DNA from: Chloroflexota bacterium
GTDB taxonomy: Bacteria > Chloroflexota > Anaerolineae > Anaerolineales > UBA4823
NCBI GenBank assembly: GCA_029265355.1
Contig: JAJUJL010000001.1
Span: 124,001-188,000 of the forward strand
Length of the DNA: 64,000 nucleotides
Reading direction: 5' to 3'
Program-made: the position numbers and the translations under genes
The notes under the pieces: generated by a model
Seen by the model: only the letters and a program-made list of their open reading frames with translations
What the model was told of the DNA's origin: nothing
Database searches by the model: none
Shown here: in pieces, positions 7,270 through 62,906 of the stretch
Position numbering within the stretch: the stretch's first letter is position 1
Layout of the letters: every line of letters begins with the position of its first letter

Positions 7270-7348
7270 GCCAGTTATTCACTCCCAAATTTGCCCGTCT
7301 GAAACCGGCCAGGCGCTGATGCTGGTTTATCTCTGCTCAGCAGCGCGG

Positions 7349-9073: not shown

Positions 9074-9171
9074 CATAATTTCCATCCTGGACGAAAATCC
9101 AAACATAGATACCCGCATTATAGCCTCATTCATCACCGGCAAGCCTGGCAACACAAACCAGGATGGCTGGA

Positions 9172-10974: not shown

Positions 10975-10977
10975 CGT

Positions 10978-12444
10978 TTATTTTTCTCCCAACAGCACCA
11001 TGCCTTGCTGGGGCGGCAATTGGATATTCAGCCCCGCGCCGCTCACCTGGGTGAGTGCATCGCCCGGCTCGGGCCACAGCGGGGTGAAACGCGTCGCGTG
11101 CAACCCTTCGGTGGAGAGCGCCACGCGCACCGAAGTTTCCCCGGCATTGAACACCACCACCAGCTCTTGTCCTTGCAATGATCGGCGGTAAGCCACGGCT
11201 TGCTCGCGGGCATAAATCACCTTGAAATCACCGGTGCGCAGCGCTGGATAGGCATGACGCAAGCCAATGACCGATTTGTAGAATGCCTGCAGCTCGCGAT
11301 CCCAACGCTCAGGGCGATCCCAGGGAAACGCCTCCCGGCAGTGCGGGTCGCCGCCAGCCGACATGCCGATCTCATCGCCATAATAAACACACGGCGCCCC
11401 GGGCATGGTCATCTGGCACAGCACCGCCAGGCGAAAAGCGGGTTTATTGTTCCCCAGCAACCACAAGGCGCGCGGCATATCGTGGCTGTCCAACATGTTC
11501 AATTGGGCGTAATTGATCTCCCACTCGTACAGGCGATGCATGGCATCCAGCCGGCTGGCAAACTCAGGCGCTTTGATCGCTCGCAGGTTGACATCCTGGT
11601 GGCGCCAGGAGAGATTCAAGTGGCGTCCGCCGAAAAAGCTGAGCACATGGCTGGTAATAATGTAATTCATCACCGCGTCGAACATGTCGCCCTGCAGCCA
11701 ATGCCGGGCCTCATGCCAGATTTCACCGACGATATACGCCTGTGGATTGACCCCCTTCACCACCCGGCGGAACTCGCGCCAGAAGCCATCATCTTTGATC
11801 TCCTCGGGAACATCCAGCCGCCAGCCATCGATGCCGAACTCCAGCCAATGCCGGGTGACCTGCAGCAGGTAATCGCGCACACCGGGATTATCGGTGTTGA
11901 ATTTTGGCAGCGAGGGATGTCCCCACCAGCAGGCATAATTGCTATCGGTGTGCTCATTGTTGTTCGGATAAGCGCGCAGCGGAAAACCGCGGACAAGAAA
12001 CCAATCCAGGTAAGGAGAGTTACCGCCGTTTTCCAGGATATGGTGGAACGCCCAAAAGCCGCGCCCGCAGTGATTGAAGACACCATCCAAAACGACACGC
12101 ATATCGCGCCTGTGGGCTTCATCCAGCAGCTCGCGCAGCGCCGCTTCCCCACCCAGCAGGGGATCCACCTCCAGGTAATCATAAGCATTGTAGCGATGGT
12201 TGGAAGCAGCCGAAAAGATCGGGTTCAGGTACAGGGCGTTGATGCCCAAATCTTTTAGATAATCCAGGTGATCGACGATGCCGTACAGGTCGCCGCCCTG
12301 GTAGCCCTGCTCTTCCGGCGGCGCGCCCCAGGTTTTGAATTCAATGCCACGCGCATGCTGGGTGCGCGGGCTGCGGCTGAAGCGGTCTGGAAAGATCTGG
12401 TAGAAAACGGCGTGTTTGACCCAATCGGGTGTTTCGATTTTCAT
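10978..12444 (-). CDS. cyclomaltodextrinase/neopullulanase-like GH13 alpha-glycosidase
   Basis: A 488-residue GH13 enzyme lacking the N-terminal dimerisation domain of classic neopullulanases. It starts directly with DWVKHAVFYQIFPDRF. The NHRYNAYDY motif is characteristic of the cyclodextrinase/neopullulanase group. Catalytic residues are Asp211 (DGWRLDVP), Glu241 (VGEIWH) and Asp322 (LDSHDM). No signal peptide is present, so it acts on imported oligosaccharides. It is first of the three GH13 genes, with AAAGGATG as ribosome site and a possible promoter just upstream. Confidence 0.93.
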   Translation of the reverse strand: MKIETPDWVKHAVFYQIFPDRFSRSPRTQHARGIEFKTWGAPPEEQGYQGGDLYGIVDHLDYLKDLGINALYLNPIFSAASNHRYNAYDYLEVDPLLGGEAALRELLDEAHRRDMRVVLDGVFNHCGRGFWAFHHILENGGNSPYLDWFLVRGFPLRAYPNNNEHTDSNYACWWGHPSLPKFNTDNPGVRDYLLQVTRHWLEFGIDGWRLDVPEEIKDDGFWREFRRVVKGVNPQAYIVGEIWHEARHWLQGDMFDAVMNYIITSHVLSFFGGRHLNLSWRHQDVNLRAIKAPEFASRLDAMHRLYEWEINYAQLNMLDSHDMPRALWLLGNNKPAFRLAVLCQMTMPGAPCVYYGDEIGMSAGGDPHCREAFPWDRPERWDRELQAFYKSVIGLRHAYPALRTGDFKVIYAREQAVAYRRSLQGQELVVVFNAGETSVRVALSTEGLHATRFTPLWPEPGDALTQVSGAGLNIQLPPQQGMVLLGEK

Positions 12445-47035: not shown

Positions 47036-50000
47036 TTACAGTTCTGACGCTGCGGGTTCAAGTCTGCGCAAGCCGCGCCACACCTTCTCTGGCGTGATTG
47101 GATTGTCATCCACCTGCACACCGCAGGCATCCAACACGGCATTGCCCACCGCAGGCGCCACGCCATCCATGGGAATCTCGGCCACCGCTTTCACTCCGAA
47201 TGGGTGGGAAGGCTCATAGGTCTGCACAAAAATGGTATCCAATTCCGGCATCTCGTGAGCCTGGAAGATGTGGTAATCCTTGAAACTTTTCTCCCTCGCC
47301 ACGCCATGCTCATCGTACACCATCTCTTCACACACCGCGTAGCCAAGCGCCTGGGTCATGCCGCCCTCGATCTGCCCAGAAGCTGTCACCGGATTGACGA
47401 TCACGCCTGAGTCCACCGCCATCACCAGGCGATCCACCCACACCTGCCCGGTTTGGATATCGACTGTCACCTCGGCAAACTGGGCGGCGAAAGGCGGCGG
47501 AGAAACCGGCGACATGTAAGAGGCCACACCCATGATCTGCTCCTGATCGGCGTGATGCAAACTGTTATGGGCGACTGCTTCCAGGGTAACGAATCTGCCA
47601 TCCGGCGCAATTGCTTTGCGATCCACCAGGCGAATCTCCGCAGGATCAACCACCTGCTCAACGCTGGAAAGCATGCTTGCCGCCCGCTTTCGAATTCGCT
47701 CGGCGACAATCTGCGCCGCCCGCGCTACCGCCGCGCCCGAGATATACGTTGTGCTGGAGGCATAGGCGCCCTTGTCGAAGGGGGTAAAGTCTGTATCCGA
47801 AGAATAAGTGATCATATCCTCCAGAGGCACACCCAGCACCTCGGCAGCCATCTGCGCCAGCACCGTATCCGAGCCAGTGCCCAGGTCCGTCGCTCCCACC
47901 AGCAGGTTGAACGAACCGTCGTCATTCATCTTGATGCTTGCCCCACCCATATCCAGGTAGGGAATGGCGGTGCCCTGCATGACCAGCGCCGCGCCGATAC
48001 CGCGCCGCAGGTGCGGTTTGCCAGGGACAGCATGCCATTGCGGATTACCAAATTTCTGATCCCAACCGATCAGGGCTTTGCCTTGCCGGGCGCACTCTTC
48101 CAGCCCGCAGGTTTGGATGGTTTCGGGGCGCGGCTCGCGGCCCTCACTCCAGGCGGTGCTGAAAGGATGCAGCTCCCCGGCGCGCAATGCATTCTTCAAA
48201 CGGAATTCCACCGGGTCCATACCCAACTTTCGGGCAATTTTTTCCATGTGGCGCTCGAGTGGCCAATAGCCCTGCGGAACGCCATAACCGCGGTAGGCGC
48301 CCGCCGGTGGGGTATTGGTGTACACGATATCCGCATAGAAGCGGATATTGGGCGCCTGGCGGTATGGGCCGTCGCCGACATACAACGCCATTGCCTTGTG
48401 CCCGGTGTTACCGGTGACGGTCAGGGCATGGCAACCATAAGCGCCCGTATCGCTGAGGGCATACATGGCATTGGCGGTGATGGTGCCATCTTTCTTTACG
48501 CCGGTTTTCAAGCGGATGCGCATGGGGTGGCGGGAGCGGGCTGCGGTAAACTCCTCCTCGCGGGTGTACTCGTAATACACCGGTCTCCCGGTAGCGATGG
48601 TGAGGTGGGCGGCAACATCTTCGATCAGCACTTCTTGCTTTCCGCCAAAGCCACCGCCGATGCGCGGCTTGATCACCCGGATGCGCTTGACTGGCAAACC
48701 CAACACGGGCGCCAGGATACGGCGCACATGAAATGGCACCTGGGTGCTGGTGCGAATCACCAGGCGGTCGTCTTCGTCCCAATAGGTGATCGTCACATGC
48801 GGCTCAATGTGCGCCTGCTGCACCTTGGGCACCCGGTACTCCGCCTCGAAGATCTCATCGGCCTCAGCAAAACCGCGTTCGACATCACCGATATCGATGC
48901 GGATCTCGGCTGCCAGGTTGCGAGCAGGGTCAGAATGAGCAAAGTTAACGTACTCCGGCTCATCGTGCAGGCGCGGCGCTCCAGGCTGCATCGCCTCGGC
49001 TGGATCCAACACGACTGGCAGCGGCTCGTATTCGACATCGATCAATTTCAGCGCCTGCTCAGCGATCTCAGCCGTTTCTGCCGCGACGAAGGCTACCCGG
49101 TCACCCACGAAGCGCACTTTGTTATCCAGCGAGAAGGTGTCCAATGGCCCAGGGATTGGATCCGATTGACCGGCAGTGGAATACGCCACGCGCGGCAGAT
49201 CCTGCCAGGTGAGCACCGCAGCCACGCCGGGTAAGGCGCGGGCGCGCCCGGTATCGATGCGCTTGATGCGCGCATGCGCCAGCGGGCTGTGCAGCACCTT
49301 AGCAACCAGCATATCGCGGCGCTCGAAATCGGCGGCAAAAGCCGGTTTGCCCTGCACCAGCTTGACGGCATCCACCTTGGGCTCGGGCTTTCCCACGCGC
49401 TGCCAGGTTTGGGCTTCGCCGGCGAGTTGCATGCGAGGCAGGATGCGAGTGCGCGTCGTTGTGCTAGCAGCGCCAGTTTCAGGCGCCCAGCCAGGGGAAT
49501 CGAGCCCAGGTTCTTTGGCGCCGGCAGGCGGGGTAGAATCCAATGGTAGACCCTCCAGCGGCTCAGGCGTCTCGCCGCGCAGCGCCGCCGCAGCGCGCAA
49601 TACAGCCTGCACCGGTTTGAGATAGCCAGTGCAGCGGCACAGGACGCCGGAGAGCGCCTGGCGCACGTCTTCTTCCGTGGGATCGGGATTGCTCTGCAGC
49701 AGGTGCCAGGCAGCTAAGACCTGGGCCGGCGTGCAATACCCACATTGAATGGCTCCTGTCTCGACAAAGGCTTTCTGCAAGGGGTGAAGACCTTGCGTCA
49801 CCCGCCAGCCCTGGACAGGGTGTTCGCCCAACGCCTCGATCGTTTCTATCTCATGCCCTTCAGCTTGGGCGGCCAGCATCATGCAGGAATTTACCGGCTT
49901 GCCGTCCAGCAGCACGGCGCACGCACCGCATTCGCCAGTTTCACAACCATGTTTTACGCCATACAGGCCATTCTTTCGCAATATATCTAGCAGCGAAGCC

Positions 50001-50056
50001 GCGGGGGCTGCTTCGACAGCAAACTCTTTGCCATTCACACGAAGCTGTAGATGCAT
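47036..50056 (-). CDS. xanthine dehydrogenase family 2Fe-2S / molybdopterin-binding fusion subunit
   Basis: A 1006-residue fusion. Residues 1-160 carry two 2Fe-2S clusters (Cys38, 43, 46 and 58; Cys105, 108, 140 and 142). A Pro/Gly/Ala-rich linker of about 60 residues follows. The Mo domain starts at VGKPEPKVDAVKLVQGKPAF. It has IGGGFGGKQE, YRGYGVPQGYW, GATDLGTGSDTVLAQMAAE and catalytic Glu960 in GVKAVAEIPMDG. The FeS-Mo fusion lacks the FAD subunit; the lone FAD subunit at 58948-59712 would complete it. The ribosome site AAGGAGA is just upstream. The substrate is unknown. Confidence 0.93.
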   Translation of the reverse strand: MHLQLRVNGKEFAVEAAPAASLLDILRKNGLYGVKHGCETGECGACAVLLDGKPVNSCMMLAAQAEGHEIETIEALGEHPVQGWRVTQGLHPLQKAFVETGAIQCGYCTPAQVLAAWHLLQSNPDPTEEDVRQALSGVLCRCTGYLKPVQAVLRAAAALRGETPEPLEGLPLDSTPPAGAKEPGLDSPGWAPETGAASTTTRTRILPRMQLAGEAQTWQRVGKPEPKVDAVKLVQGKPAFAADFERRDMLVAKVLHSPLAHARIKRIDTGRARALPGVAAVLTWQDLPRVAYSTAGQSDPIPGPLDTFSLDNKVRFVGDRVAFVAAETAEIAEQALKLIDVEYEPLPVVLDPAEAMQPGAPRLHDEPEYVNFAHSDPARNLAAEIRIDIGDVERGFAEADEIFEAEYRVPKVQQAHIEPHVTITYWDEDDRLVIRTSTQVPFHVRRILAPVLGLPVKRIRVIKPRIGGGFGGKQEVLIEDVAAHLTIATGRPVYYEYTREEEFTAARSRHPMRIRLKTGVKKDGTITANAMYALSDTGAYGCHALTVTGNTGHKAMALYVGDGPYRQAPNIRFYADIVYTNTPPAGAYRGYGVPQGYWPLERHMEKIARKLGMDPVEFRLKNALRAGELHPFSTAWSEGREPRPETIQTCGLEECARQGKALIGWDQKFGNPQWHAVPGKPHLRRGIGAALVMQGTAIPYLDMGGASIKMNDDGSFNLLVGATDLGTGSDTVLAQMAAEVLGVPLEDMITYSSDTDFTPFDKGAYASSTTYISGAAVARAAQIVAERIRKRAASMLSSVEQVVDPAEIRLVDRKAIAPDGRFVTLEAVAHNSLHHADQEQIMGVASYMSPVSPPPFAAQFAEVTVDIQTGQVWVDRLVMAVDSGVIVNPVTASGQIEGGMTQALGYAVCEEMVYDEHGVAREKSFKDYHIFQAHEMPELDTIFVQTYEPSHPFGVKAVAEIPMDGVAPAVGNAVLDACGVQVDDNPITPEKVWRGLRRLEPAASEL

Positions 50057-51565: not shown

Positions 51566-52050
51566 TAACACCCTGTTACCTTCCTGACGATCATCGCAGA
51601 ATCGAGCGACAAGTCCGCTCCCAGCCAATCTACCTGACTGCTCATTTGAAATTTCTTCACTCCCGGTCTCGAAAGATTAACAAACGATTAACAAAATATC
51701 CCCCATAAGATAGTCATCGGACTAGGAAATTTGTCATATTGTAATGCCTTACAATATGACAAGTAACCGCCCAATGTCATATCAATATCACTATCATATT
51801 AACGACAATTCCCGCATAATATAGTCTAAGTTATCAGAGACACAAAGTCTTATTAATACACACTTTACATCACAAAACAGAACTGTCCCGCAATTCTTAC
51901 TGTCGATAAAGGAGGTCATGCCAAGGGAAACGCTGCATATCACACACTTTTCGCCCGTGTGCAGTCCTTAATCCATCACGCGCCAAACAGGCATCACCCC
52001 CTGTCCTAAGCCAGAAACTGCACACATCGTAGCTATGGGAGATGAACACA
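51566..52050 (+). other. leader region of the copper locus
   Basis: A gap of about 480 bp with strong AT bias between 51660 and 51900. It contains the large palindrome at 51731-51762, then TGTCATAT at 51775-51782 as a possible extra half-site, and TATAGT near 51820 as a poor -10 candidate. A 17-codon ORF (51918-51971) follows AAAGGAGGT, but the spacing is only 2 bases, so I do not call it a gene. CACAC/GTGTG flanking arms near 51942-51960 could form a hairpin. Confidence 0.4.
51731..51762. promoter_or_regulatory. 32-bp palindrome, probable operator of the copper locus
   Basis: TTGTCATATTGTAA (51731-51744) is perfectly inverted at 51749-51762 around TGCC. Arms of 14 bp without a mismatch, with no T run after them and little GC, point to a protein-binding site rather than a terminator. 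It lies about 290 bp before the first copper-locus gene. Confidence 0.6.
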
Positions 52051-52827
52051 ATGACCAATCGACTTAAAATGGCGCTCCTTTCGAGTATTTTTTTGGCTTT
52101 GCTGATGGTTGCATCAGCCTACGCCTACGTCATCACGATCGACGGCGACCCGTCGGAATGGCAGGTTTCGATGAACATGACCCCGCCTGAGGACGGGCTG
52201 GAGGAAGCTCCCGATTCGATCGACCCCAGTGTAGACATCGCTGAATACTGGGCGACTAACGACGGACTCAATCTTTATTACCGCTTCGACACCTGGACCA
52301 ATACCGCTTGGGATAATATCCAGTTGGTAGCTGTATGCATGGACGTGAACCCCAATACGCACGTCAGTTGCGGTGCAAACTGGGGCTGTGATAGCGCCGC
52401 CGATTTCGCCCTGGTGATCGATCCGAGCATCGGAACCACTGAACTGCTGGATGCGGAGACCTGTAATCCAGTCCCTGGGGCTACACCGGATGCCTTCTCG
52501 GCAAACGAGGTCACCGAAATCAGCGTGCCCTTTGCCGGCCTCGGTCTGAACTCCACCAACTGCAACTTTGACTGTTATGTGAACACCCAGATCATCCTGC
52601 AGTATGGTGCAGATTTAACCGAAGCGGACTTGTTCCCCGACACAGGTTACTTTCCCCAGCAGGTTGGCGGCGGCAGCCCGACCTCCACAGGTTTGGTGAA
52701 CTTGTCTGCCAGTTCAGCGCAGCCCGCTGGGGCGTTCGAGCTGCCCCAAGCGTTAACCCTGGCGGCCACCATCCTCATGCTGGTGGTCGTCCTGAGCTGG
52801 CGGCGCGCGCTGAGATATCCACGCTAG
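52051..52827 (+). CDS. exported DOMON/CBM9-like protein with C-terminal anchor
   Basis: A 258-residue secreted protein. It has a signal peptide, and ITIDGDPSEWQ at the mature N terminus is the opening strand of CBM9/DOMON-type beta-sandwich domains. Eight cysteines lie in the mature part. The C terminus has a membrane helix followed by SWRRALRYPR, which resembles a sortase-like or exosortase-like tail. The start at 52051 is chosen because GGGAG is 9 bases upstream; an ATG at 52042 abuts that site. It precedes the multicopper oxidase by 28 bp and is probably co-transcribed. Haem or sugar binding is possible, but I cannot choose. Confidence 0.78.
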   Translation: MTNRLKMALLSSIFLALLMVASAYAYVITIDGDPSEWQVSMNMTPPEDGLEEAPDSIDPSVDIAEYWATNDGLNLYYRFDTWTNTAWDNIQLVAVCMDVNPNTHVSCGANWGCDSAADFALVIDPSIGTTELLDAETCNPVPGATPDAFSANEVTEISVPFAGLGLNSTNCNFDCYVNTQIILQYGADLTEADLFPDTGYFPQQVGGGSPTSTGLVNLSASSAQPAGAFELPQALTLAATILMLVVVLSWRRALRYPR

Positions 52828-52855
52828 TGTGAGCACAATGAGTGAGGAGATCCCA

Positions 52856-54520
52856 ATGAAATTACGAAAATTACTCTCCCTGGTGATCATGTCGGTGCTG
52901 ATCCTGGGCGCACTGGCATTCACACCCGGCGCCTACGCGCCTGTCCAGGCGGAGACGGAGGCTGTCTCTGCCTCGGTGGTGTACAACCTGTACGCCACCG
53001 ACGGTTTCGTGAAAATGGCCGATTGGGCGCCTGGCAACCCGCTGCTCTACATCTACGGCTTCATCGGCAGCCGCAGCGACCAAAACCTGGTGTGGTACGA
53101 CTACACCACCAACACCGCCAATGATACCGGCGCGCCTGCGCCGGCGCCCACCGGCGGCCCGGTCACCCCAGCCGAACAATTCCTGGCAGGCAAAGCCCAG
53201 TTACCCGCCCCAGTCATCTGGGCTAAAGTCGGCGACGTGGTCGAGATCCGCCTGAAGAATCTAGGCGTCCACGCTGAGCCAAGCGCACCCAACGACCCAC
53301 ACTCCATCCACCTGCACGGCCTGGACGTGGACGCCGCCAACGACGGCGTGCCGGAGACATCGGTGGGCGCCGTGCCCGCCAACATGTGCGTGGATGGCAG
53401 CACCGATCCGGGCGACAATTGCACCAGCGCCGGCGGCTACGCCCCTGGCGCTGGCAACGTGGTGGTGTACATGTTCACCGCTGAAACACCCGGCACCAGC
53501 ATGTATCACTGCCACCAGGAAGCGGACATCCATGTGCAGATGGGCATGTACGGGGCGCTGGTGGTGTATGACACCAACGACCCGGCCGGCAATGCAAACT
53601 CCACGTTCTGCACCGGTGGTCTGCTGAACGGGAAACCTTGCGGGCAAGGACCCAACTCGGGCACAGGCGGCATCTACAATGGCTTCCGCTACGACCGGGA
53701 TGTGATCATGCTGCTTTCCGAAATCGACAGCGATTATCACAATGCCGAGCAGGGCACCTATCCGGTTGCGCCCGATCCAAGCAACAGCAACTTTGGCCGC
53801 GCCTGGAACCCGGTTGACTACCTGCCGGAATACTGGCTGATCAACGGTATCTCTTTCCCCAATACCATCGGCGTCAGCAACTCGGCGATCGACATGGCTC
53901 AATGGAATGTCGCTTTCAAGGGATATGACCCGCTTTTGACTGGCAGCATGAGCGTCACCACCAACTGGTCGAACGCCCAATGGAGAACCCGCGGCGAAAA
54001 AGTGCTGCTGCGCATGATCAATATGGGCTTCGAGACCCAGCCGATGCACATCCACGGCTACCATCTCAAGGTGCTCGGATCCGACCAGCGCCCCTGGCCC
54101 TGGGCTAACCGCGTCCTGTGGGGGCGACCGACGCCCTTCAACCAGGGCCTGGAAAAGAACACCGTGCTGATCGGTTCCGGCGAGACTTATGAGCTGCTGC
54201 TAGACTTCGGACAGCAGGAGTCCTTCTCCATCTATCCGACGGATACACAAACCCGCTATGAGCCCAGCGATAACACCCCGCGCAGCAACACCTCAACCAC
54301 CCACCCCGGCATTCCGCACGCTGGCGTGGTGGGCGACCCATCCTATATTGCTGGGCCTACCGTCACCGGCGCAGTCGTGCCGCTGCCCGATGGCACCGTC
54401 GCGGCGCTCGATCCAACCGGAACGCAGATCTTCCCGTTCCACAACCACGACGACTACAAAGCCACCAACAACGGCGCCTATCCAGGCGGGCAGTTCACCG
54501 CAGTTATCCCACTGCCCTGA
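52856..54520 (+). CDS. multicopper oxidase, two-domain type
   Basis: A 554-residue exported copper oxidase with a signal peptide starting MKLRKLLSLVI. Copper motifs: HLHG (His152, His154), HCH (218-220), HIHGYH (His398, 400, 403) and HNH (529-531). Cys219, His226 and Met231 form the type 1 site, so it lies in the first cupredoxin domain. The C-terminal motif has Asn where three-domain laccases have the type 1 Cys. The layout fits two-domain laccases or nitrite-reductase relatives. It acts outside the membrane. The ribosome site GAGGAGA is 7 bases before the ATG. Cuprous, manganese or phenolic substrates are possible. Confidence 0.9.
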   Translation: MKLRKLLSLVIMSVLILGALAFTPGAYAPVQAETEAVSASVVYNLYATDGFVKMADWAPGNPLLYIYGFIGSRSDQNLVWYDYTTNTANDTGAPAPAPTGGPVTPAEQFLAGKAQLPAPVIWAKVGDVVEIRLKNLGVHAEPSAPNDPHSIHLHGLDVDAANDGVPETSVGAVPANMCVDGSTDPGDNCTSAGGYAPGAGNVVVYMFTAETPGTSMYHCHQEADIHVQMGMYGALVVYDTNDPAGNANSTFCTGGLLNGKPCGQGPNSGTGGIYNGFRYDRDVIMLLSEIDSDYHNAEQGTYPVAPDPSNSNFGRAWNPVDYLPEYWLINGISFPNTIGVSNSAIDMAQWNVAFKGYDPLLTGSMSVTTNWSNAQWRTRGEKVLLRMINMGFETQPMHIHGYHLKVLGSDQRPWPWANRVLWGRPTPFNQGLEKNTVLIGSGETYELLLDFGQQESFSIYPTDTQTRYEPSDNTPRSNTSTTHPGIPHAGVVGDPSYIAGPTVTGAVVPLPDGTVAALDPTGTQIFPFHNHDDYKATNNGAYPGGQFTAVIPLP

Positions 54521-54550
54521 GATCGATTGATTGACCGTGTGTGGATGGAG

Positions 54551-54588
54551 GCGGGGGTTGGGATCTCTCCCAACCCCCGCACTTTGCC
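54551..54588 (+). terminator. strong hairpin after the multicopper oxidase
   Basis: A perfect 12-bp GC-rich stem, GCGGGGGTTGGG (54551-54562) with 54569-54580 around ATCTCT, is followed by ACTTTGCC. The T run is poor, so it may end transcription or protect the 3' end. The gap 54589-54807 holds no supported gene. Confidence 0.65.
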
Positions 54589-54807
54589 AGAAAACATGTC
54601 TTCATGAATCGCACTCAGGCTCAAGCTATCTTCGGCGCATTGAGCAGACGGTTATTTCTGGCAGGAAATGATCAAGGTATAATTCCGACTGGTTTATGTC
54701 TCGAGATTTCGGGTATGCACGGCTTGGGAAATACGATACACCCTGATATGCCCTTATAAAATCTCAGATTGAGTATATTGGTTGAGTGTGGCGTGAGGAA
54801 TTAGGCG

Positions 54808-55719
54808 ATGCAAAAGAAACATCAACCGGTTGCAAAACGGAATCATAATAAACGGCTCTGGCTGGCAGCCGGCCTGGTCTTACTGGTTTCTTTAGTTCTG
54901 GTCGGCGCCTGGCAGATGCGCTCCCAGGCTGCCACGCGCGAAGCTCCCGAAGCGGCTGCCATACTGGCAGCACAGGCCAATATGCCGTTTCAAATTCTCA
55001 TTCCAGCCTACATGCCCAAAGAGGTGATCCGAGAGAAAGTCGGCATCAGCATGACCGAAACCGGCCCTGGCGGCGAGCCGATGGTACAGCTCGTTTACCG
55101 CACCAAGAGCGACGATACAATCTTCCTCAAGCAATGGGTGCCGGTTAACCCAGAAAAAGAAATCCTGGCAGGCTCACGCCCGGTGCAAACCGTCTGGGGA
55201 CAGGGCTACATGATCGCCCAGGGCGAAAGCCTGGCGGCCATCTGGGTGGATGTGGGTCCAACGCGTGTCTCAATCTACACCCCCACACAGAAACACATCA
55301 CCCGAGAAGAGATCTTGCAAATGGCAAACACATTGGGCCCGGCCTCCAGCTCCCAGGTGTTTGATTTCGTCCTCGAACTGCCAGAAGTGCTGGCGGTGGA
55401 GCCAGCGCCGCCCTTCGAGCCGCCGGTGAATGCAGATGGCGTTCAAGAATTTACCCTGGTAGTCACCCCCGGCGGTTACGACCCGCTGCGCATCCAACTC
55501 AAGCAGGGCGTGCCGGTCAAGATGACTTTTCGCGCCATCGGGCAGGTGGGCTGCGGCAAGGAGCTGCTCTTTCGCGTCAGCTCGAGCGAGGTGATCGAAG
55601 GCCGGCTGGAGACGGAGGCCGAGCAGGATGTCATCGAATTTACGCCGCAAGAGACAGGCGAATTCGAGTTTCACTGCTCGCACCAGATGTACCGCGGCAT
55701 GCTTACCGTGGTGCCCTGA
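54808..55719 (+). CDS. membrane-anchored protein with C-terminal cupredoxin domain
   Basis: A 303-residue exported protein. One N-terminal membrane helix (about 17-36) is followed by a central domain of about 150 residues that resembles DUF4367-type anti-sigma or lipoprotein domains. A cupredoxin domain of about 85 residues ends the protein. The copper loop is FHCSHQMYRGM (288-298), with His289, Cys290, His292, Met294 and Met298 as candidate ligands, like the short CGM-type plastocyanin loops of copper P-type ATPase partners. It should bind Cu outside the cell. It starts a second transcription unit after the oxidase terminator, and it is followed by the lipoprotein and ABC genes. Confidence 0.83.
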   Translation: MQKKHQPVAKRNHNKRLWLAAGLVLLVSLVLVGAWQMRSQAATREAPEAAAILAAQANMPFQILIPAYMPKEVIREKVGISMTETGPGGEPMVQLVYRTKSDDTIFLKQWVPVNPEKEILAGSRPVQTVWGQGYMIAQGESLAAIWVDVGPTRVSIYTPTQKHITREEILQMANTLGPASSSQVFDFVLELPEVLAVEPAPPFEPPVNADGVQEFTLVVTPGGYDPLRIQLKQGVPVKMTFRAIGQVGCGKELLFRVSSSEVIEGRLETEAEQDVIEFTPQETGEFEFHCSHQMYRGMLTVVP

Positions 55720-55749
55720 GTCGATCAAACCACCGCTTAAGCAGCAGCC

Positions 55750-56535
55750 ATGCACAGAAATAACGGAATAAACACTCACCGCTGGCGCCGGCAGCAGCGT
55801 TGGCTGCTCACCTGCCTGGCGGGCATCATCTCGATCCTGTTCGCTGAGCTGCTCCTGTCTGCCTGTGCACCCTTGCCATCTCCCGATCAAGGCGCACCTG
55901 AGGAGATGATCGATAAAGCCGCCGCCCAGGCAACCGCCATCATCCAGCAAGCAGAAGCGACCGCCCTGGCAGTGAAGGCGCGCGCCGAAGCCACCGCCCT
56001 GCTGGCCCAGGCTCAACAGCAAGCCACTGCCCTGTCTGCCGGTGGAGCAGGCGCCAATCGGCAAGCTACGCCCACCGCCGCCCAGCAAAGCCCAGGCTCG
56101 GTTCCTGGCTTAACCGCCATTCCTGCGGGAACCAGCACAGTCGCCGCTCAGGAAATGGCAGCCACCCAAACGCCTCAGCCACAATTGAGTGGTTATGCCG
56201 CCGTGCAGGCAACTTACGGTCCAGACGCTGTCCAGCTACTCAAAGTCAGCCTGGCTGCCAATGGTCAATACATCTACATTCAGTACCTGGCGCCGCCTGA
56301 GCTGGCCTTCTATTGGAACCAGACCGTTGTTTCCGTCGAAGACCTGGAAACCGGGTTGATTTACGCAGAAGTCCCCTTCATGCCGTTGATCGGCGCGCTG
56401 TTCAACAAGCCAGCCCATCCCGGGCAGCCTGGTTACGTCATGGTGCTCAACCTGCCCACGCCGCTGGACTACGGCGCTCATGTGAAGGTAAGATTGGGCG
56501 GTTATGAATGGGAAGATGTGATTGTCGAGGAATAG
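55750..56535 (+). CDS. lipoprotein with helical, Ala/Gln-rich spacer
   Basis: A 261-residue predicted lipoprotein. The basic N-terminal region is long, and the lipobox is LLSAC (Cys39). Residues about 50-95 form an Ala/Gln/Glu-rich helix likely to be a coiled coil. A Thr/Pro linker follows, then a beta-rich C-terminal domain (YAAVQATYGPDAVQLLKVSL to the end). No family is recognised. It lies 30 bp after the cupredoxin gene and 19 bp before the ABC permease, so it may be the external adaptor of that transporter. Confidence 0.76.
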   Translation: MHRNNGINTHRWRRQQRWLLTCLAGIISILFAELLLSACAPLPSPDQGAPEEMIDKAAAQATAIIQQAEATALAVKARAEATALLAQAQQQATALSAGGAGANRQATPTAAQQSPGSVPGLTAIPAGTSTVAAQEMAATQTPQPQLSGYAAVQATYGPDAVQLLKVSLAANGQYIYIQYLAPPELAFYWNQTVVSVEDLETGLIYAEVPFMPLIGALFNKPAHPGQPGYVMVLNLPTPLDYGAHVKVRLGGYEWEDVIVEE

Positions 56536-56554
56536 AAAGGCACACGCATTATCG

Positions 56555-57748
56555 ATGAACCTCAACCTCCTGGCCTGGAATAATATTCGGGGCAGCGCCT
56601 TTCGCAGCCTGGTGGTGGCGCTGTCCGCCTTACTGGTTGCCAGTTTTGCCGTCTCGACCACCATGATCATGCGCGGCGCCGAGAACAGCCTGCGCCTGGC
56701 CCTGGAGCGGCTGGGCGCTGACATCCTGGTGGTGCCCCAGGGCGCCGAGGCCAGCGCCGAGACTGCCCTGTTGATGGGCGTGCCCGCCGAGATGTGGATG
56801 CCGCAGAGCAACCTGGAAGCCATCGCCGCCATCCCTGGCGTCGAGAAAGTCTCGCCGCAAATCTACCTCACCACGCTGGAAGATGCCGCCTGCTGCTCGG
56901 CGCCGAATATGTTCCTGGTGGTATTCGACCCCGCCACTGACTTCACCATCACCCCCTGGCTAAAACAAAATGTCGGAGGCGAGCTGAAGCTGGGTGAAGT
57001 GGTTGGCGGGCATTACGTGTTCACGCCCGAAGGCGCAGAAAACATCCTGATCTATGGCTATTTCGTCACCCTGGTGGCGAACATGGAGCCCACCGGCACC
57101 GGCCTCGACCAAACCATGTTCTTCACCCTGGAAACCGCCCGCGATATTTCCCGCATCTCCTTCTCGCGAGCGGTCACACCGCTGGTGATACCTGAAAACC
57201 AGGTGTCTGCCATTATGGTCAAGGTGGCCGAAGACGCCGTGCCCTCTGAGGTGGCGATCGACATCTTGCAGAACGTGCCCAATGTGACCCCCATTGAAAG
57301 CCCGAATATGTTCCAGGCTTACCGTAAGCAAATGAGCGGACTGCTTTCGACCGTGCTGGTGGTGATGGGTATCACCTGGCTGCTTTCATTCGTCCTCATC
57401 GGGCTGGTGTTTTCGATGGCAGCCAATGAAAGGCGGCGCGAGATTGGGGTGCTGCGCGCCCTGGGCGCCACGCGCGGCCATGTGCTGCGCTCGCTCCTGG
57501 CAGAAGCCGGCATCCTGGCGCTGGTGGGTGGTTCATCGGGCGTGCTGCTCGCCGCTCTGGGAATTTTCATCTTCCGCAAAACAATTGTCGAATCGGTTGG
57601 CGTCCCGTTCATCTTCCCCTCGCTGCCTTCCCTGCTGCTGCAGATCGGCGCCGGGGTGGCGCTGACATTGGTCAGCGTGACATTGGCGGCGCTGCTACCC
57701 GCCTATCGCATCAGCCGCATGGAGCCCTCCAGCGCCATGCGCGAATGA
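56555..57748 (+). CDS. MacB/FtsX-type ABC transporter permease
   Basis: A 397-residue permease. The first helix is followed by a large extracytoplasmic MacB-type domain (about residues 45-250). Three helices follow near 265-290, 320-345 and 360-382. The ANERRREIGVLRALGATRGH coupling segment is diagnostic for MacB_FtsX permeases. Such transporters move lipoproteins, signals or peptides, or transmit force across the membrane. Next to a PCu(A)C chaperone and cupredoxin it recalls copper-assembly clusters such as nosDFYL, although it is not NosY. The ATG at 56555 replaces the longer frame from 56522. It lies 9 bp before the ATPase gene. Confidence 0.9.
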   Translation: MNLNLLAWNNIRGSAFRSLVVALSALLVASFAVSTTMIMRGAENSLRLALERLGADILVVPQGAEASAETALLMGVPAEMWMPQSNLEAIAAIPGVEKVSPQIYLTTLEDAACCSAPNMFLVVFDPATDFTITPWLKQNVGGELKLGEVVGGHYVFTPEGAENILIYGYFVTLVANMEPTGTGLDQTMFFTLETARDISRISFSRAVTPLVIPENQVSAIMVKVAEDAVPSEVAIDILQNVPNVTPIESPNMFQAYRKQMSGLLSTVLVVMGITWLLSFVLIGLVFSMAANERRREIGVLRALGATRGHVLRSLLAEAGILALVGGSSGVLLAALGIFIFRKTIVESVGVPFIFPSLPSLLLQIGAGVALTLVSVTLAALLPAYRISRMEPSSAMRE

Positions 57749-57757
57749 GCCAGTCAC

Positions 57758-58441
57758 ATGATCGAATTGATAGAAGTGTCTAAAACCTATCTCCTGGGAA
57801 AAGACCAGCAGGTGCAGGCGGTCAAACCCACCAACCTGCAAATCCAGTCTGGAGAATTCGTGGTTATCACCGGGCGTTCCGGGTCTGGCAAGACCACCCT
57901 GCTCAACCTGATCGCAGGGCTGACGCGCCCGACATCGGGCAGCGTGCTGTTGGATGGGCACGACCTGTGGAGCCTGTCGGATAAAGAGCAATCCCTGCTA
58001 CGCAACCAGACCGTTGGATTCATTTTCCAATTCCCCAGCCTGCTGCCTTCACTGCGCGTTTTGGATAACGTGGTTCTCCCCACCATCTTTGAGGAGAGCG
58101 GGGCGGTGAGCAACGAAAAATACGCCCGCGCCAAAGAGCTCCTGGCAACAGTCGGGCTGTCGGATAAGCTGCGCGCCTATCCCCGCCAGCTCTCGGCAGG
58201 TCAGCAGCAACGCGTGGTCATCGCTCGCGCCCTGCTCAACCAGCCCAAGCTGCTGCTGGCCGACGAACCCACCAGCAACCTGGACGAGCAAACCGAGACC
58301 GAGATTATGGAGCTTTTTCGGCAGATACACACCACCACCGGCATCACCATGGTGATGGTGACACACACCAGCCAACTGGTGCGCTATGGCACCCGCGCCA
58401 TTTCGATGGCCATGGGGCAGGTATTGAATAGCGGCGATTAA
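57758..58441 (+). CDS. ABC transporter ATP-binding protein (LolD/MacB type)
   Basis: A 227-residue ATPase. Walker A is GRSGSGKTT, the Q-loop is FIFQFPSLLPSL, the signature is LSAGQQQR, Walker B is LLLADEPT, and the switch His is in MVTHTSQ. The length fits LolD-type subunits of MacB permeases. It couples to the permease 9 bp upstream. Confidence 0.95.
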   Translation: MIELIEVSKTYLLGKDQQVQAVKPTNLQIQSGEFVVITGRSGSGKTTLLNLIAGLTRPTSGSVLLDGHDLWSLSDKEQSLLRNQTVGFIFQFPSLLPSLRVLDNVVLPTIFEESGAVSNEKYARAKELLATVGLSDKLRAYPRQLSAGQQQRVVIARALLNQPKLLLADEPTSNLDEQTETEIMELFRQIHTTTGITMVMVTHTSQLVRYGTRAISMAMGQVLNSGD

Positions 58442-58478
58442 TCCTGCTGTGGTGGTGATATTCTTTTGGAGGAATACC

Positions 58479-58937
58479 GTGAAACAAACTATCCTGCTAT
58501 TGCTGCTCACGATTGCACTGTTGTTGACCGCCTGCAACGCCAACGCGCCTGAAGAACCGGCCCTGGAATTCGAGGACGTGTGGGCGCGCGCTGCGCTGCT
58601 GCCCACCGATTCTTCTGCCACGGCCGCAACCAGCGCAATCTATATGACCATTCGCAACCGCGGTAAGACAGGCGATAAACTGATCAACGCCAGCTCGGAC
58701 GTGGCGGAGATCGTCGAGCTGCACACCACCGAGACGCGCAACGGCATGACCATGATGTCTCGCATCGACGAGGTGGAAATTCCCGGGCTCAAAAAAGCCG
58801 AATTGAAACCCGGTGGATTGCATGTGATGCTCATTCGCCTGAAACAGAATCTGAATCCAGGCGACACGGTCAAAGTGACCCTGGAGTTCGAGAAAAGCGG
58901 CTCCATTGAGGTCGAAGCGCAGGTGCGCGAACCCTGA
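58479..58937 (+). CDS. PCu(A)C periplasmic-type copper chaperone, lipoprotein
   Basis: A 152-residue lipoprotein beginning MKQTILLLLL with lipobox LTAC (Cys19). The copper motif is H-x10-M-x21-H-x-M with His82, Met93, His115 and Met117, exactly the PCu(A)C spacing. These proteins carry Cu(I) to cytochrome oxidase CuA or to other copper enzymes. The start is a GTG because GGAGGA lies just upstream; the frame opens at 58449 with no signal peptide there. It is the last gene of the copper locus. Confidence 0.93.
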   Translation: MKQTILLLLLTIALLLTACNANAPEEPALEFEDVWARAALLPTDSSATAATSAIYMTIRNRGKTGDKLINASSDVAEIVELHTTETRNGMTMMSRIDEVEIPGLKKAELKPGGLHVMLIRLKQNLNPGDTVKVTLEFEKSGSIEVEAQVREP

Positions 58938-58947
58938 AGCAACCCGA

Positions 58948-59712
58948 TTAAGCCACTAGAGCCTGCACGCAGCGCCCAGCCAGGATAGCCGCCGCTTCCT
59001 GGCGATACTCTGCGCTGGCCCATTGATCGGTTGATGACGCGCAGGCGTTGCGCACGGCAGCCTCCCAGCCTGATTCTTCGGGACCGTCCATCGCCAGGCG
59101 CGGCGCAGAGCCGAATCCCCCCACCGCGAGGCGCGTCCTGCCGGAGGGCCAGCGCGCCGCGGCCACGCAGACGATGGGCAAATCCGCCGGAGTGCGCGCC
59201 ACATAATCATAGATTACCCTGGGGGTCCTGGGAAACTCCACCCGCGTCGCCAACCCACCTTGCAGGCGCGGCGGCTGCAAAGCCAGCAACGCCCCCAGGC
59301 TGGTTTGCTCCGGCGAACTGTCCAACCGCTCCACCCGCAGGCTGGCATCCAGCGCCAGCATGGTCGTCGCCAGCGGCGAGCGCCCATCCGCAGCCAGCAA
59401 CGACCCAGCGATGGTGCGCACCTGGCGCAAGTTGTAGCTCGCTTCCAGCTCCAGCGCCAGGCACAGCCCGTCAGGCAGCTCCGGGTGAGTCAACAGGGCC
59501 TGCAAGCGCACGGCTGCACCGGCCTGCACCAGCTCGCGACTGAGCTGAACTTGCTCCATTCCCAGGCTCTGCACGTCAACCACCTCGAACGGCACCTGCA
59601 GCTTGCGGTCGATCTGCGTTCCACCGCCCAGCGGCAGCGTGCGCACTTGCGGCCTGGCCAGCAGCTTCAGGGCTTCCTCCAGGGACTGCGGGCGATGATA
59701 AGCCGTAATCAT
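58948..59712 (-). CDS. xanthine dehydrogenase family FAD-binding subunit (stand-alone)
   Basis: A 254-residue CoxM/XdhB-type FAD subunit. LPLGGGTQIDRKLQ is the first FAD motif, and YNLRQVRTIAGSLLAADGRSP the second (usually RNxGTxGGNL). The second motif is modified (Gln/Val in place of Asn/Arg), so FAD binding may differ. No Mo or FeS subunit is adjacent; the FeS/Mo fusion at 47-50 kb is the candidate partner. The ATG at 59712 has AAGGAG 6-7 bases upstream. It is last in the F420 operon run, 24 bp after the thioesterase. Confidence 0.85.
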   Translation of the reverse strand: MITAYHRPQSLEEALKLLARPQVRTLPLGGGTQIDRKLQVPFEVVDVQSLGMEQVQLSRELVQAGAAVRLQALLTHPELPDGLCLALELEASYNLRQVRTIAGSLLAADGRSPLATTMLALDASLRVERLDSSPEQTSLGALLALQPPRLQGGLATRVEFPRTPRVIYDYVARTPADLPIVCVAAARWPSGRTRLAVGGFGSAPRLAMDGPEESGWEAAVRNACASSTDQWASAEYRQEAAAILAGRCVQALVA

Positions 59713-59736
59713 GGACAACTCCTTAGACGCAAAGAC

Positions 59737-60204: not shown

Positions 60205-61206
60205 TCACCCCCGTGGTGCAAAAGTGTCGATCAACAAGCGCACATCGCCGCCCACTGGATATAGAATCGGGCAAGTGCAGCCGTTATTGCAGTACTCTTG
60301 CACCTTGGCGCGCGCCTCGTCGGGCGTGCCCGAGGCGGTGATGCGCAAGATCAACTCTTCTGGCACCAGGTGCTTGGCGCGCTGGATCTGCTCTTTTGTC
60401 GCCGGCCATCCCAGGATGGACTGAATTTGGGCGACAACATCGTCCGATACCCCGGAAGCCTTGGCAATGTGCGGCTGCTGCGCCAGGTACTGCGTGAGCA
60501 GTTCGCGCGTGGTATCAATGGCCCGGTCGTGATCGGCATCCACCGAACAAACCACCAATTGAGGGCGGTCGATATCTTCCAGGCGGCGTCCAGCCCGGCG
60601 AGCGCCAGCTTCGAGCAGCTCCAAAGCCTTGTGGTTATACTCCGGAGGCACGCAGTAATTGAGCACCACTCCATCGGCAATCTCGCCAGCCAGTTCCATC
60701 ATCTTGTCGCCCGTGGCGCCGATCATGATCGGCACATGGCGCGGCTCACGCCGCCCGTGCACCACGTCCAGCTCGATGCCATCCACGTGGTGGAATTCCC
60801 CATGAAAGGTGACTCTCTCCATGTTCAACAGGCGGCGCAGCACTTCCACCGTTTCGCGCATGGCGGTCAATGGTTTACGGCGGTCGATGCCCACATTGCG
60901 CGCCAATGGATCCCACCAGGCGCCGATACCGCAGATGACCCTGTTCGGCGCCAGGTCGTCCAGGGTGAGAAAAGTCGCCGCCAGCAAGCCGATATTGCGC
61001 GTCCAGTTATTGATCACGCCCGATCCGACCTTGATTTTTTCGGTCACCGCCGCATAGGCAGCCATCGGGACAATGGCATCGCGCACCAGGCGGGATTCGG
61101 CCTGCCATACCGCCTCGAATCCACGCGCCTCGGCGTAGCGCACGTAATCCAATCCGGTGCGCAGGTCGTGAGCGTCTTGTAAGTACAGGGCAACTCTCTG
61201 GGTCAT
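60205..61206 (-). CDS. LLM-class F420-dependent oxidoreductase
   Basis: A 333-residue luciferase-like TIM barrel. [27 protein letters not shown] is cut here into its parts: [19 protein letters not shown] and [31 protein letters not shown] is the usual cofactor loop. The family is mostly F420-dependent, and the gene lies directly downstream of cofC and cofD. That makes F420 rather than FMN the expected cofactor. The substrate is unknown. The gap to cofC is 67 bp and contains a 7-bp hairpin (61240-61259). Confidence 0.92.
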
Positions 61207-61273
61207 GGCTTCTCCTTAGCGTCAGAATTTGTAAGGCGATTGGCTGCCGCCACAGCCAACAGGCTTTTCAGAA

Positions 61274-61885
61274 TTACTCGAAACCGTTATCCAGCTCCAT
61301 CTCGACAATGTCAAGGTCTTCAGGCAGATCCACATCCAGCGCCAGGGAGGGCAGCTCGCAGATCTCCAGGCGCGCCCCGGCCTGGCGAGCCAGCCGGCAG
61401 TGACGCTCGAATGAACCCGGCCCGAAATCATAGTCGATCAATCCGACCGGGCAGACCAGCAAAGCATTGGTACCCTTCCGGTGCCGGTCTGGCGCCACCA
61501 CCACTACCGGCGGTTTATGCGCCCGATCCAGCATCAGGCGCACATCCTCGGGGCTCAGCAGGGGCAGGTCGGCCGGAACGATCAGCACACCGCGCGTGGT
61601 GTAGGTCTTGGCCACGATGGTCGCCCGGGCCAGGGCGACATTGAGATGCGGAGCGCCGTTTTCTTGCACCGTTCGAGCGCCGTGATCGCGGGCCAGGGCC
61701 AGCGCAGCCGGGTCGCGGCTGATCACCAGCACGTGTTCAATTTCCGGAATAGCGGTCAGCGTATCGATTGTGTGAGCCAGCAGTCGGCGGTTCAGATCGG
61801 TGCGTTCATCCTGGCTGAGCACACCCGAAAGGCGCGATTTTCCGCGTCGCAGGGGTTTTACCGGAACGATCGCCCAGAGTGTCAT
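61274..61885 (-). CDS. cofC: 2-phospho-L-lactate guanylyltransferase CofC
   Basis: A 203-residue nucleotidyltransferase. The N-terminal AIVPVKPLRRGKSRLSGVL is the CofC signature. VLIVPADLPLLSPEDV is the metal-binding core, and FGPGSFERH a conserved C-terminal piece. It joins GTP to 2-phospholactate or phosphoenolpyruvate to make the activated side chain of F420, releasing PPi. It lies 91 bp downstream of cofD on the same strand. Confidence 0.94.
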   Translation of the reverse strand: MTLWAIVPVKPLRRGKSRLSGVLSQDERTDLNRRLLAHTIDTLTAIPEIEHVLVISRDPAALALARDHGARTVQENGAPHLNVALARATIVAKTYTTRGVLIVPADLPLLSPEDVRLMLDRAHKPPVVVVAPDRHRKGTNALLVCPVGLIDYDFGPGSFERHCRLARQAGARLEICELPSLALDVDLPEDLDIVEMELDNGFE

Positions 61886-61976
61886 GCAAGTGCATCCTTT
61901 CCCTATGTCATCATCTTTGTGATCTTGGTTTCGTTCATGCGACGAACGGGCGATCTCAACTTCTTCTCCTGAGAAA

Positions 61977-62906
61977 TTACAACAAAGCGGAACCTAACGA
62001 CAGGCATTCGGCTGCCAGTTGGCGGCGATCGGCAGCGGTGTGCATCCAGGTAGCAGTGACCAAAGCTTTCACACCCAACGCCTGCACTTCACTTTGCAAA
62101 GCAGCGTCTTCTCGATCCAACACAAAAGCGCTTAAGAACTTGCGGTAGTGGCGTGCAACTGAGAGCGCCGAGGGCTCGATCCCCAACTCGGCATACATTT
62201 TAGCTGCCGGACCTTTCACCGTTCGCCCCCCGATGATCGGTGAGACAGCCAAAACCGGCCGAGACATGACAGCCGGTAAAATCCCCGGTATCGCCAGGAT
62301 AGGGTCGACGCTCACCCAGGGATTGGAGGGACAGATCACTACCAGGTCGGCTCGTTGGATGGCTTCTAGCACGCCTTTTGCCGGTGACGATCGATCAACG
62401 TCTGCAAACCTGAATCCACTCACGCTCGGGCGGCATTGCCGGCGGACAAAATATTCCTGGAAGGGCATTTCTCCTTCATCAGTATACACCCAAGTGGGTA
62501 CACTGTCATCACTGGCTGGCAAAACTGTTAACTGGATACCCCACGCCCGGCAAAAATCGCCTGTGATCTGGCTGAGGGGCTCGCCTTTCGCCAGGCGGCG
62601 GGTGCGCTCCAGGTGAGTGCCCAGGTCGCGATCGCCCAGGCGGAACCAGGTCGGTCCGCCCAGCCGGCCGATATTCTCCAGGGCGTTCCAGGTTTCTCCC
62701 GCCAATCCCCAGCCGGTGGCCGGGTTCGCCATGCCCGCCAATGTGTAGCAGACCGTATCCAGGTCAGGGCAGATATGCAAGCCGAAAAAATCGAAATCGT
62801 CGCCGATGTTGACCACCACGGTCAGATCTTCGGGCGGCAAATTCTGCGCTAAACCGTCTGCCAAACGCGCTCCGCCAACGCCGCCTGCTAACGCCACCAC
62901 TTTCAT
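61977..62906 (-). CDS. cofD: 2-phospho-L-lactate transferase CofD
   Basis: A 309-residue enzyme. It opens with LAGGVGGARLADGL. VVNIGDDFDFFGLHICPDLD is the family signature, and CPSNPWVSVDPILAIPG binds the product. It transfers the phospholactyl (or phosphoenolpyruvyl) group to FO to make F420-0 or its dehydro form. The start lies 7 bp after the fused pyrophosphatase-nitroreductase gene. FO synthase genes are not in the window. Confidence 0.95.
   Translation of the reverse strand: MKVVALAGGVGGARLADGLAQNLPPEDLTVVVNIGDDFDFFGLHICPDLDTVCYTLAGMANPATGWGLAGETWNALENIGRLGGPTWFRLGDRDLGTHLERTRRLAKGEPLSQITGDFCRAWGIQLTVLPASDDSVPTWVYTDEGEMPFQEYFVRRQCRPSVSGFRFADVDRSSPAKGVLEAIQRADLVVICPSNPWVSVDPILAIPGILPAVMSRPVLAVSPIIGGRTVKGPAAKMYAELGIEPSALSVARHYRKFLSAFVLDREDAALQSEVQALGVKALVTATWMHTAADRRQLAAECLSLGSALL

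Follow-up and report, generated by a model that had tools for sequence, protein, structure and literature searches.

A conserved seven-gene cluster in a Chloroflexota genome that may join a type VII ABC unit to extracytoplasmic copper proteins

What might an ATP-driven machine be doing among genes for copper proteins of the outer face of the membrane? The question is raised by seven plus-strand open reading frames (ORFs) that span positions 52042-58937 of the window, by which we mean the whole 64,000-nucleotide stretch of Chloroflexota contig JAJUJL010000001.1 analysed here; the source genome assembly is 5.05 Mb in 64 contigs. The ORFs encode a secreted protein, a multicopper oxidase, a cupredoxin, a lipoprotein, the permease and ATPase of an ATP-binding cassette (ABC) unit, and a PCu(A)C copper chaperone (Table 1). 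With a probability of roughly 0.4, the seven genes make up a single extracytoplasmic copper system in which an ATP-driven machine at the outer face serves copper proteins, by loading them with Cu(I) or by repairing them.

Gene content and conservation

The seven genes are a real, conserved unit. Five of the seven proteins fall into families above the curated Pfam cut-off: P0002 in Cu-oxidase_2 (76 bits against a cut-off of 20.4), P0003 in Cupredoxin_1 (39.3 against 27), P0005 in FtsX (PF02687; 66.7 against 25.5), P0006 in ABC_tran (132 against 25), and P0007 in PCuAC (PF04314; 118 against 29.4); P0001 and P0004 fall into none. With these matches, an exact PCu(A)C motif and an exact CSHQM loop, the seven-gene block proposed in the first-pass annotation stands, but its start at 51731 does not: that position is the left end of a palindrome where there is no gene. 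From our reading of the sequence, three starts are better placed at ATG 52856 (oxidase), ATG 56555 (permease, giving 397 amino acids and matching its homologues), and GTG 58479 (PCu(A)C protein, with GGAGG just 5'). Rfam had no match in the window.

All seven genes recur in identical order in L012 (JAGOBP010000135.1, a Thermoflexales metagenome-assembled genome), G206:C493 has the same layout as L012, and the first five genes recur in order in L023 (G009), where the contig stops inside the permease. In a class sample of 396 genomes, which includes the window genome as one in each count, permease matches at E 1e-50 were found in 18 genomes; no more than four permease candidates per genome were scored, and permeases may be undercounted. 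The cupredoxin was matched at 1e-15 in eight genomes and the oxidase at 1e-20 in four, in every case no farther from a permease match than 1.2 kb and 4 kb, respectively. In every class genome where it was found, the oxidase thus lies beside the ABC genes rather than in an unrelated place.

Many of the related permeases share a vicinal cysteine pair with P0005 (Cys-Cys permeases; see below), and copper genes lie close to them far more often than expected. The count covered 25 Cys-Cys permease loci in 20 genomes. Of the 17 PCu(A)C genes there, 7 fall within 5 kb of such a permease (0.05 expected), and of the 61 Cu-oxidase_2 genes, 12 fall within 10 kb (0.35 expected); expectations were calculated from rounded genome sizes, and repeat rows of one open frame were dropped. 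By our own reading of the neighbours, 19 of 30 Chloroflexota Cys-Cys loci have a copper gene nearby. L082 (4545-11139) holds a Cys-Cys ABC unit, PCu(A)C, a Fer4_5 membrane protein to which a COX2/CuA-type cupredoxin is fused, and a reductive-dehalogenase-like protein (PF13486) next to a small RdhB-like one. L083, L084, and L085 resemble L082, the only one of the four on which Pfam was run; L085 has no nearby PCu(A)C match.

Chance alone could place an ordinary type VII exporter within a surface-protein operon, and P0005 and P0006 do score below every specific NCBIfam cut-off displayed, so their family gives no function. However, a seven-gene order shared by distant genera and proximity above chance make such an accident highly improbable.

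Table 1. Features of the window and of loci with related genes. Window positions are given unless a locus is named.
Feature	Position or loci	Strand	Remark
Palindrome, 14-nt arms, 4-nt gap	51731..51762	.	operator-like; putative role
P0001, secreted protein, C-terminal membrane helix, IDGDPSEW stretch	52042..52827	+	homologues at same place in L012, L023
P0002, two-domain multicopper oxidase	52829..54520	+	Pfam and ligand motifs
Hairpin, 13-bp, perfect, without T run	54551..54580	+	3' of oxidase gene; z -4.7
P0003, membrane-anchored CupA-like cupredoxin, extra N-terminal domain	54808..55719	+	C249, C290, H292, M294
P0004, lipoprotein, LSAC lipobox, Ala-rich coiled stretch, C-terminal domain	55750..56535	+	no Pfam match
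P0005, type VII (FtsX/MacB/LolE-like) ABC permease, Cys-Cys pair	56555..57748	+	Pfam, fold model
P0006, ABC ATPase, LolD/FtsE/MacB type	57758..58441	+	Pfam, NCBIfam
P0007, lipoprotein PCu(A)C copper chaperone	58479..58937	+	motif and PCuAC; ORF opens 58449
Split-oxidase set, window genome	L026 (G000:C12:114000-128000) 6159-11984		
Oxidase and/or cupredoxin near permease (9 loci)	window, L012, L013, L019, L023, L070, L072, L073, L075		
CopA alone near permease	L068		
Split oxidase near permease (4 loci)	L024, L077, L078, L079		
PCu(A)C near permease (4 loci)	L022, L082, L083, L084		
CuA-type protein near permease	L085		by likeness only
No recognised copper neighbour	L014, L015, L016, L017, L018, L020, L021, L051, L076, L080, L081		

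The ABC unit

P0005 is assigned to the type VII ABC permeases by its FtsX C-terminal domain and by its modelled overall fold. The model, built from 10 sequences with a mean predicted local distance difference test (pLDDT) of 81.6, matched LolE, MacB, and the haem exporter HrtB in Foldseek, although fold alone shows no function. It aligned with MacB 5gko over 356 residues (Z 19.7, root-mean-square deviation 4.3 Å), with 5xu1_M over 357 (Z 22.1, 6.9 Å), and with LolE 9rld over 352 (Z 21.4, 7.8 Å). The MacB permease of the first-pass annotation is thus borne out as to fold, but MacB_PCD itself scored below its cut-off (20.6 against 27), and the unit is unlikely to be a MacAB-TolC pump. The window unit shares the type VII fold of MacAB-TolC and LolCDE and their LolD/MacB type of ATPase; it differs from them in its Cys-Cys pair, in having its ATPase gene separate from the permease gene, and in having no adaptor gene in the locus. 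A search of the genome for Omp85 found no match, while 7 of 14 control genomes were positive, which makes an outer membrane unlikely. Tripartite MacAB-TolC efflux was rejected for want of an adaptor, an ATPase-permease fusion, and Omp85, and LolCDE identity because neither equivalog cut-off of NCBIfam was reached (P0006, 219.9 bits against 307.75 for LolD; permease, 28.9 against 362.45 for LolC).

As a rule, type VII ABC units act outside the membrane and carry no substrate through it, their function being set by a partner protein (PMC12646458). The cluster had first been given the joint role of copper delivery to the oxidase or export of a copper-stressed substrate. A conserved, copper-linked unit agrees with this, but export fits less well than delivery because Omp85 and an adaptor gene are both absent and type VII units typically act on the outer face.

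The nearness of the P0005 model to LolE, together with the two lipoproteins of the cluster, would also suit a defence against copper stress: Cu(I) would be oxidised by the oxidase and buffered by the carriers, and the ABC unit would pull out damaged lipoproteins or lipids much as LolCDE does. CopA P-type ATPase genes (recognised by eye) do stand beside the unit in L013 and L068. However, the ORFs of the window cluster include neither CopA nor a copper sensor, and PCu(A)C proteins mostly serve in copper delivery, as in Thermus; we consider such a defence unlikely.

The Cys-Cys pair of P0005 occupies codons 113-114 counted from ATG 56555, and Cys113-Cys114 is invariant in alignment A1 (10/10 sequences). 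We delimited the family by a vicinal Cys pair before a DPxxDF..PWL stretch, both of which P0005 has. The pair is present in 32 of the 44 permeases read (29/40 and 3/4), and permeases of Treponema and Fusobacterium, 31-32% identical, also carry it. Nine of the 12 that do not are second members of tandem pairs, indicating that such pairs hold one Cys-Cys partner and one without; two are FetB/C-like permeases of Fusobacterium and one is from Methylocella. As a mark of the whole permease family, the pair is, on the sequences compared, apparently new here. The second ABC unit of the window genome (L021, G000:C46:158000-177000, at 6724-11112) has tandem permeases, one with Cys-Cys, and adjoins a VIT1/CCC1-like gene with a ferritin-like start (by eye).

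By similarity, a DUF4418 gene lies beside the permease in 19 of the 30 Chloroflexota Cys-Cys loci; DUF4418 (PF14387) was tested with Pfam in L016 only, where it scored 90 bits. Cys-Cys loci thus point to DUF4418, a domain of unknown function, as a partner. The window, L012, and L023 have no DUF4418, its position being occupied by a lipoprotein of the P0004 type. The LSAC lipobox and Ala-rich coiled stretch of P0004 agree with its description as a coiled-coil lipoprotein, and the protein has no Pfam or NCBIfam family and no PDB sequence match. It may be related to proteins of 163-214 amino acids in the tandem loci, with which it shares position and 11-19% identity.

Copper genes are of course not the only neighbours of the family. 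A general thiol or redox relay, which would supply any metal or redox protein at the outer face with reducing power or a thiol carrier and have copper proteins as but one class of client, would account for the MauG-type peroxidase of L014, the Fer4_5 ferredoxin of L017, and the reductive-dehalogenase-like protein of L082. In Fusobacterium vincentii (L027, 1363-8874), an FtrD-domain gene (PF10080, 112 bits), two Fet-type permeases, and an ATPase form an FtrD/FetBCD-like set. Immediately after it come genes for an FMN-binding-like lipoprotein and a DUF4418-like protein (both by eye) and a Cys-Cys ABC unit. FetBCD has been modelled as a source of reducing power, its authors calling the cargo unclear (PMC10783030), and the same role could be extended to the relay. 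On the other hand, the FetB/C-like permeases of L027 have no Cys-Cys, and the strong enrichment of copper genes near Cys-Cys permeases also weighs against it; we judge the relay rather unlikely, though it is the foremost of the alternatives.

The multicopper oxidase and its split relatives

In P0002, domain 1 contributes H158-x2-H161-x-H163, H227-C228-H229, H235, and M240; domain 2 contributes H407-x-H409 and H538-x-H540. Assigning these to T1, T2, and T3 sites from the usual motifs, we take the T1 site to be H158, C228, H235, and M240, all in domain 1, and the trinuclear site to comprise all eight histidines H161, H163, H227, H229, H407, H409, H538, and H540, half from each domain. The full relatives of P0002 in L012 and L023 retain every ligand (3/3 with the window). 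P0002 is thus predicted to be a working multicopper oxidase with all ligands retained and, as the first reading of the locus had it, two domains. At L019 (5542-6696), the oxidase homologue has gained a Met/Cys-rich stretch and is perhaps now a copper buffer.

Three consecutive oxidase-like genes (A, B, and C) occur in L024, L077, L078, and L079 and on C12 of the window genome. In all five sets, gene A has the T1 site together with the trinuclear ligands of domain 1, and gene B has only the other half, those of domain 2 (H-P-H, H-N-H). Gene C has no common copper-ligand motif, the L078 C protein having a lone HxH stretch. Because the trinuclear ligands are divided between genes A and B, the ligand pattern suggests a heteromeric multicopper oxidase in which two chains would build a single trinuclear site between them. 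Six-domain oxidases retain at most one trinuclear site (PMC3600357), and the split oxidase would be their separate-chain counterpart. In the window genome, the split set lies on C12, away from the tandem ABC unit, which is on C46.

The cupredoxin and the remaining proteins

P0003 has an N-terminal membrane anchor, an extra domain of 150 amino acids (with a weak DUF4245 match, below cut-off), and a C-terminal cupredoxin whose CSHQM loop is exactly as first described. Its closest solved relative is CopA-N (4f2f, E 9.8e-13), a cupredoxin domain from an ATPase of the CopA type, followed by pneumococcal CupA (2mry, E 6.2e-7). Both S1 cysteines of these structures align with C249 and C290, whereas the Met pair of 4f2f (C-x-M-x-M) corresponds to His292 and Met294 in P0003 (C-S-H-Q-M). 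The cupredoxin fold thus holds two S1 cysteines without a Met-rich S2 site, and because one S2 Met is replaced by His we name P0003 CupA-like and not CupA. An electron-transfer blue copper protein was also considered for P0003, and is weakened by CupA and CopA-N being the nearest solved relatives. A single-sequence structure model was poor (pLDDT 52.6) and was not used.

Among nine P0003 homologues, C290 is retained in all nine and the His two residues on in eight. The positive-inside rule predicts that P0003 is located outside. Three of six homologues examined (L070, L073, and L075) have a lipobox-like motif, which would place their cupredoxin domain outside as well. Beyond the class, matches to the anchored cupredoxin were found at 10 places in 8 of 400 phylum genomes, with nine of the 10 matches covering the cupredoxin domain only; the flanks of these nine contain the permease in no case and CopA in five.

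The PCu(A)C chaperone P0007 has the motif H-x10-M-x21-H-x-M exactly, with the perfect ligand spacing claimed for it, and belongs to the PCu(A)C proteins. The label DOMON-like for P0001 had to be dropped. The best Pfam match of P0001 was only 12.7 bits, it has no NCBIfam family either, its relative in L023 has no Pfam match, and a profile of three relatives found no match among PDB sequences; a DOMON fold is unsupported by any of these.

How the parts might work together

In the copper system that we favour, P0003 and P0007 would hold Cu(I) on the outside of the membrane, and P0005 and P0006 would form a homodimeric type VII ABC machine doing mechanical work outside the membrane. The paired cysteines in the outside domain of P0005 could react with Cu(I) or with thiols, and P0004 would be the partner lipoprotein, standing where other loci place DUF4418. 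ATP would then power copper transfer between carriers and oxidase, or keep metal sites reduced and loaded. What the analysis shows is the gene content, the ligands, the folds (by homology), the linkage, and the conservation of Cys-Cys; we infer copper as the cargo, its hand-over, the dimer, and the direction.

A narrower proposal, which we think rather unlikely, has the Cys-Cys unit as an ATP-driven Cu(I) loader: ATP inside would force Cu(I) hand-over between chaperones and copper enzymes outside, with no copper crossing the membrane, and the unit would have been paired more than once with copper enzymes of different kinds (a one-chain oxidase, a split oxidase, and a CuA-type protein). If this were true, metal-site assembly would be added to the tasks on record for type VII ABC machines. 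A relative of the FetBCD-type units with a fixed Cys pair, tied to copper chaperones and oxidases, is a testable case for the cargo of such units. We recognised no published description of this gene set, although the literature search left out most subscription papers and is weak evidence of absence.

Several observations weigh against an ATP-driven copper system. Eleven of the 30 Chloroflexota Cys-Cys loci have no recognisable copper gene nearby; L051 and L080 among them sit on contigs of <4.5 kb, and a 1614-amino acid ORF with a weak oxidase match in L014 was not counted as a copper gene. Copper-linked permeases are not a single clade in the tree, and copper may thus be one client class of an older machine. 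The L019 oxidase homologue has lost all HxH ligands, so that oxidase activity would be dispensable in some loci. The first site Cys is absent in four of the nine P0003 homologues (retained in five), and the loop Met in five (retained in four). Finally, the region around Cys-Cys in the P0005 model has low confidence (pLDDT 65-67).

Comparison with known systems

The cluster is like nosDFYL, for nitrous oxide reductase assembly, in grouping a copper enzyme, a lipoprotein copper chaperone, and an ABC unit, and the nos ABC unit is required for copper-site maturation (PMC7660919, PMC7558416). It is unlike nosDFYL in that the window permease is of the FtsX type and the chaperones are PCu(A)C and CupA-like. 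No NosZ-, NosD-, or NosL-like gene was found among the seven proteins, to which the search was limited, in keeping with the earlier view of a nos-like cluster without its key genes.

In Campylobacter, the metal gene cluster fetMP-fetABCDEF includes an ABC unit of unknown cargo, with two permeases to a single ATPase (PMC10783030, PMC6083913). The window cluster likewise places an ABC unit among metal genes, with distant kinship through the FetB/C-like permeases of Fusobacterium L027, but it has no FetM, P19, FtrD-domain protein, or thioredoxin. By this analogy, the oxidase might be a ferroxidase and the ABC unit an aid to iron uptake; the distant relation to FetB/C-like permeases and the VIT1/CCC1-like gene beside the second permease pair of the window genome would fit. 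Yet the seven genes include no iron permease, P19, or FtrD, and the PCu(A)C and CupA-like types are both copper proteins, leaving a role in iron uptake very unlikely.

CupA of Streptococcus pneumoniae, a Cu(I) chaperone anchored in the membrane, has a bis-thiolate S1 site and a Met-rich S2 site and serves CopA from the inner side (PMC7558416). P0003 resembles it as a membrane-anchored cupredoxin with two S1 cysteines but differs in its predicted outside location and in having no CopA in its cluster. The cutFOG operon of Rhodobacter capsulatus combines a multicopper oxidase with a dedicated cysteine-containing maturation factor and an intergenic stem-loop (PMC8456105). The window cluster is similar as an oxidase operon with a stem-loop between genes; as described, cutFOG has no ABC unit, and CutF is a small periplasmic CXXXC protein.

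Control elements and neighbouring genes

The palindrome is a perfect 14+4+14 sequence 280 bp 5' of the first gene. The site is unique in the genome, allowing up to three mismatches, no recognisable regulator gene is adjacent to it, and there is no palindrome of this kind upstream in L023. A regulon box was rejected for lack of a second genomic copy and of anything similar upstream in L023.

The hairpin after the oxidase gene has a counterpart in L012, a 14-bp hairpin of other sequence at an equal offset and likewise without a T run, and L023 has a different strong fold after the oxidase. The oxidase and the carrier-ABC part may, from these predicted folds, differ in expression level.

Genes for the large and FAD-type subunits of a molybdenum hydroxylase (by eye) lie on the minus strand at 47036-50056 and 58948-59718, bordering the copper block on either side as though the block had been inserted. 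Further along the minus strand (60205-62906) are an F420-dependent LLM-type oxidoreductase gene and then CofC- and CofD-like F420 synthesis genes, likewise identified by eye.

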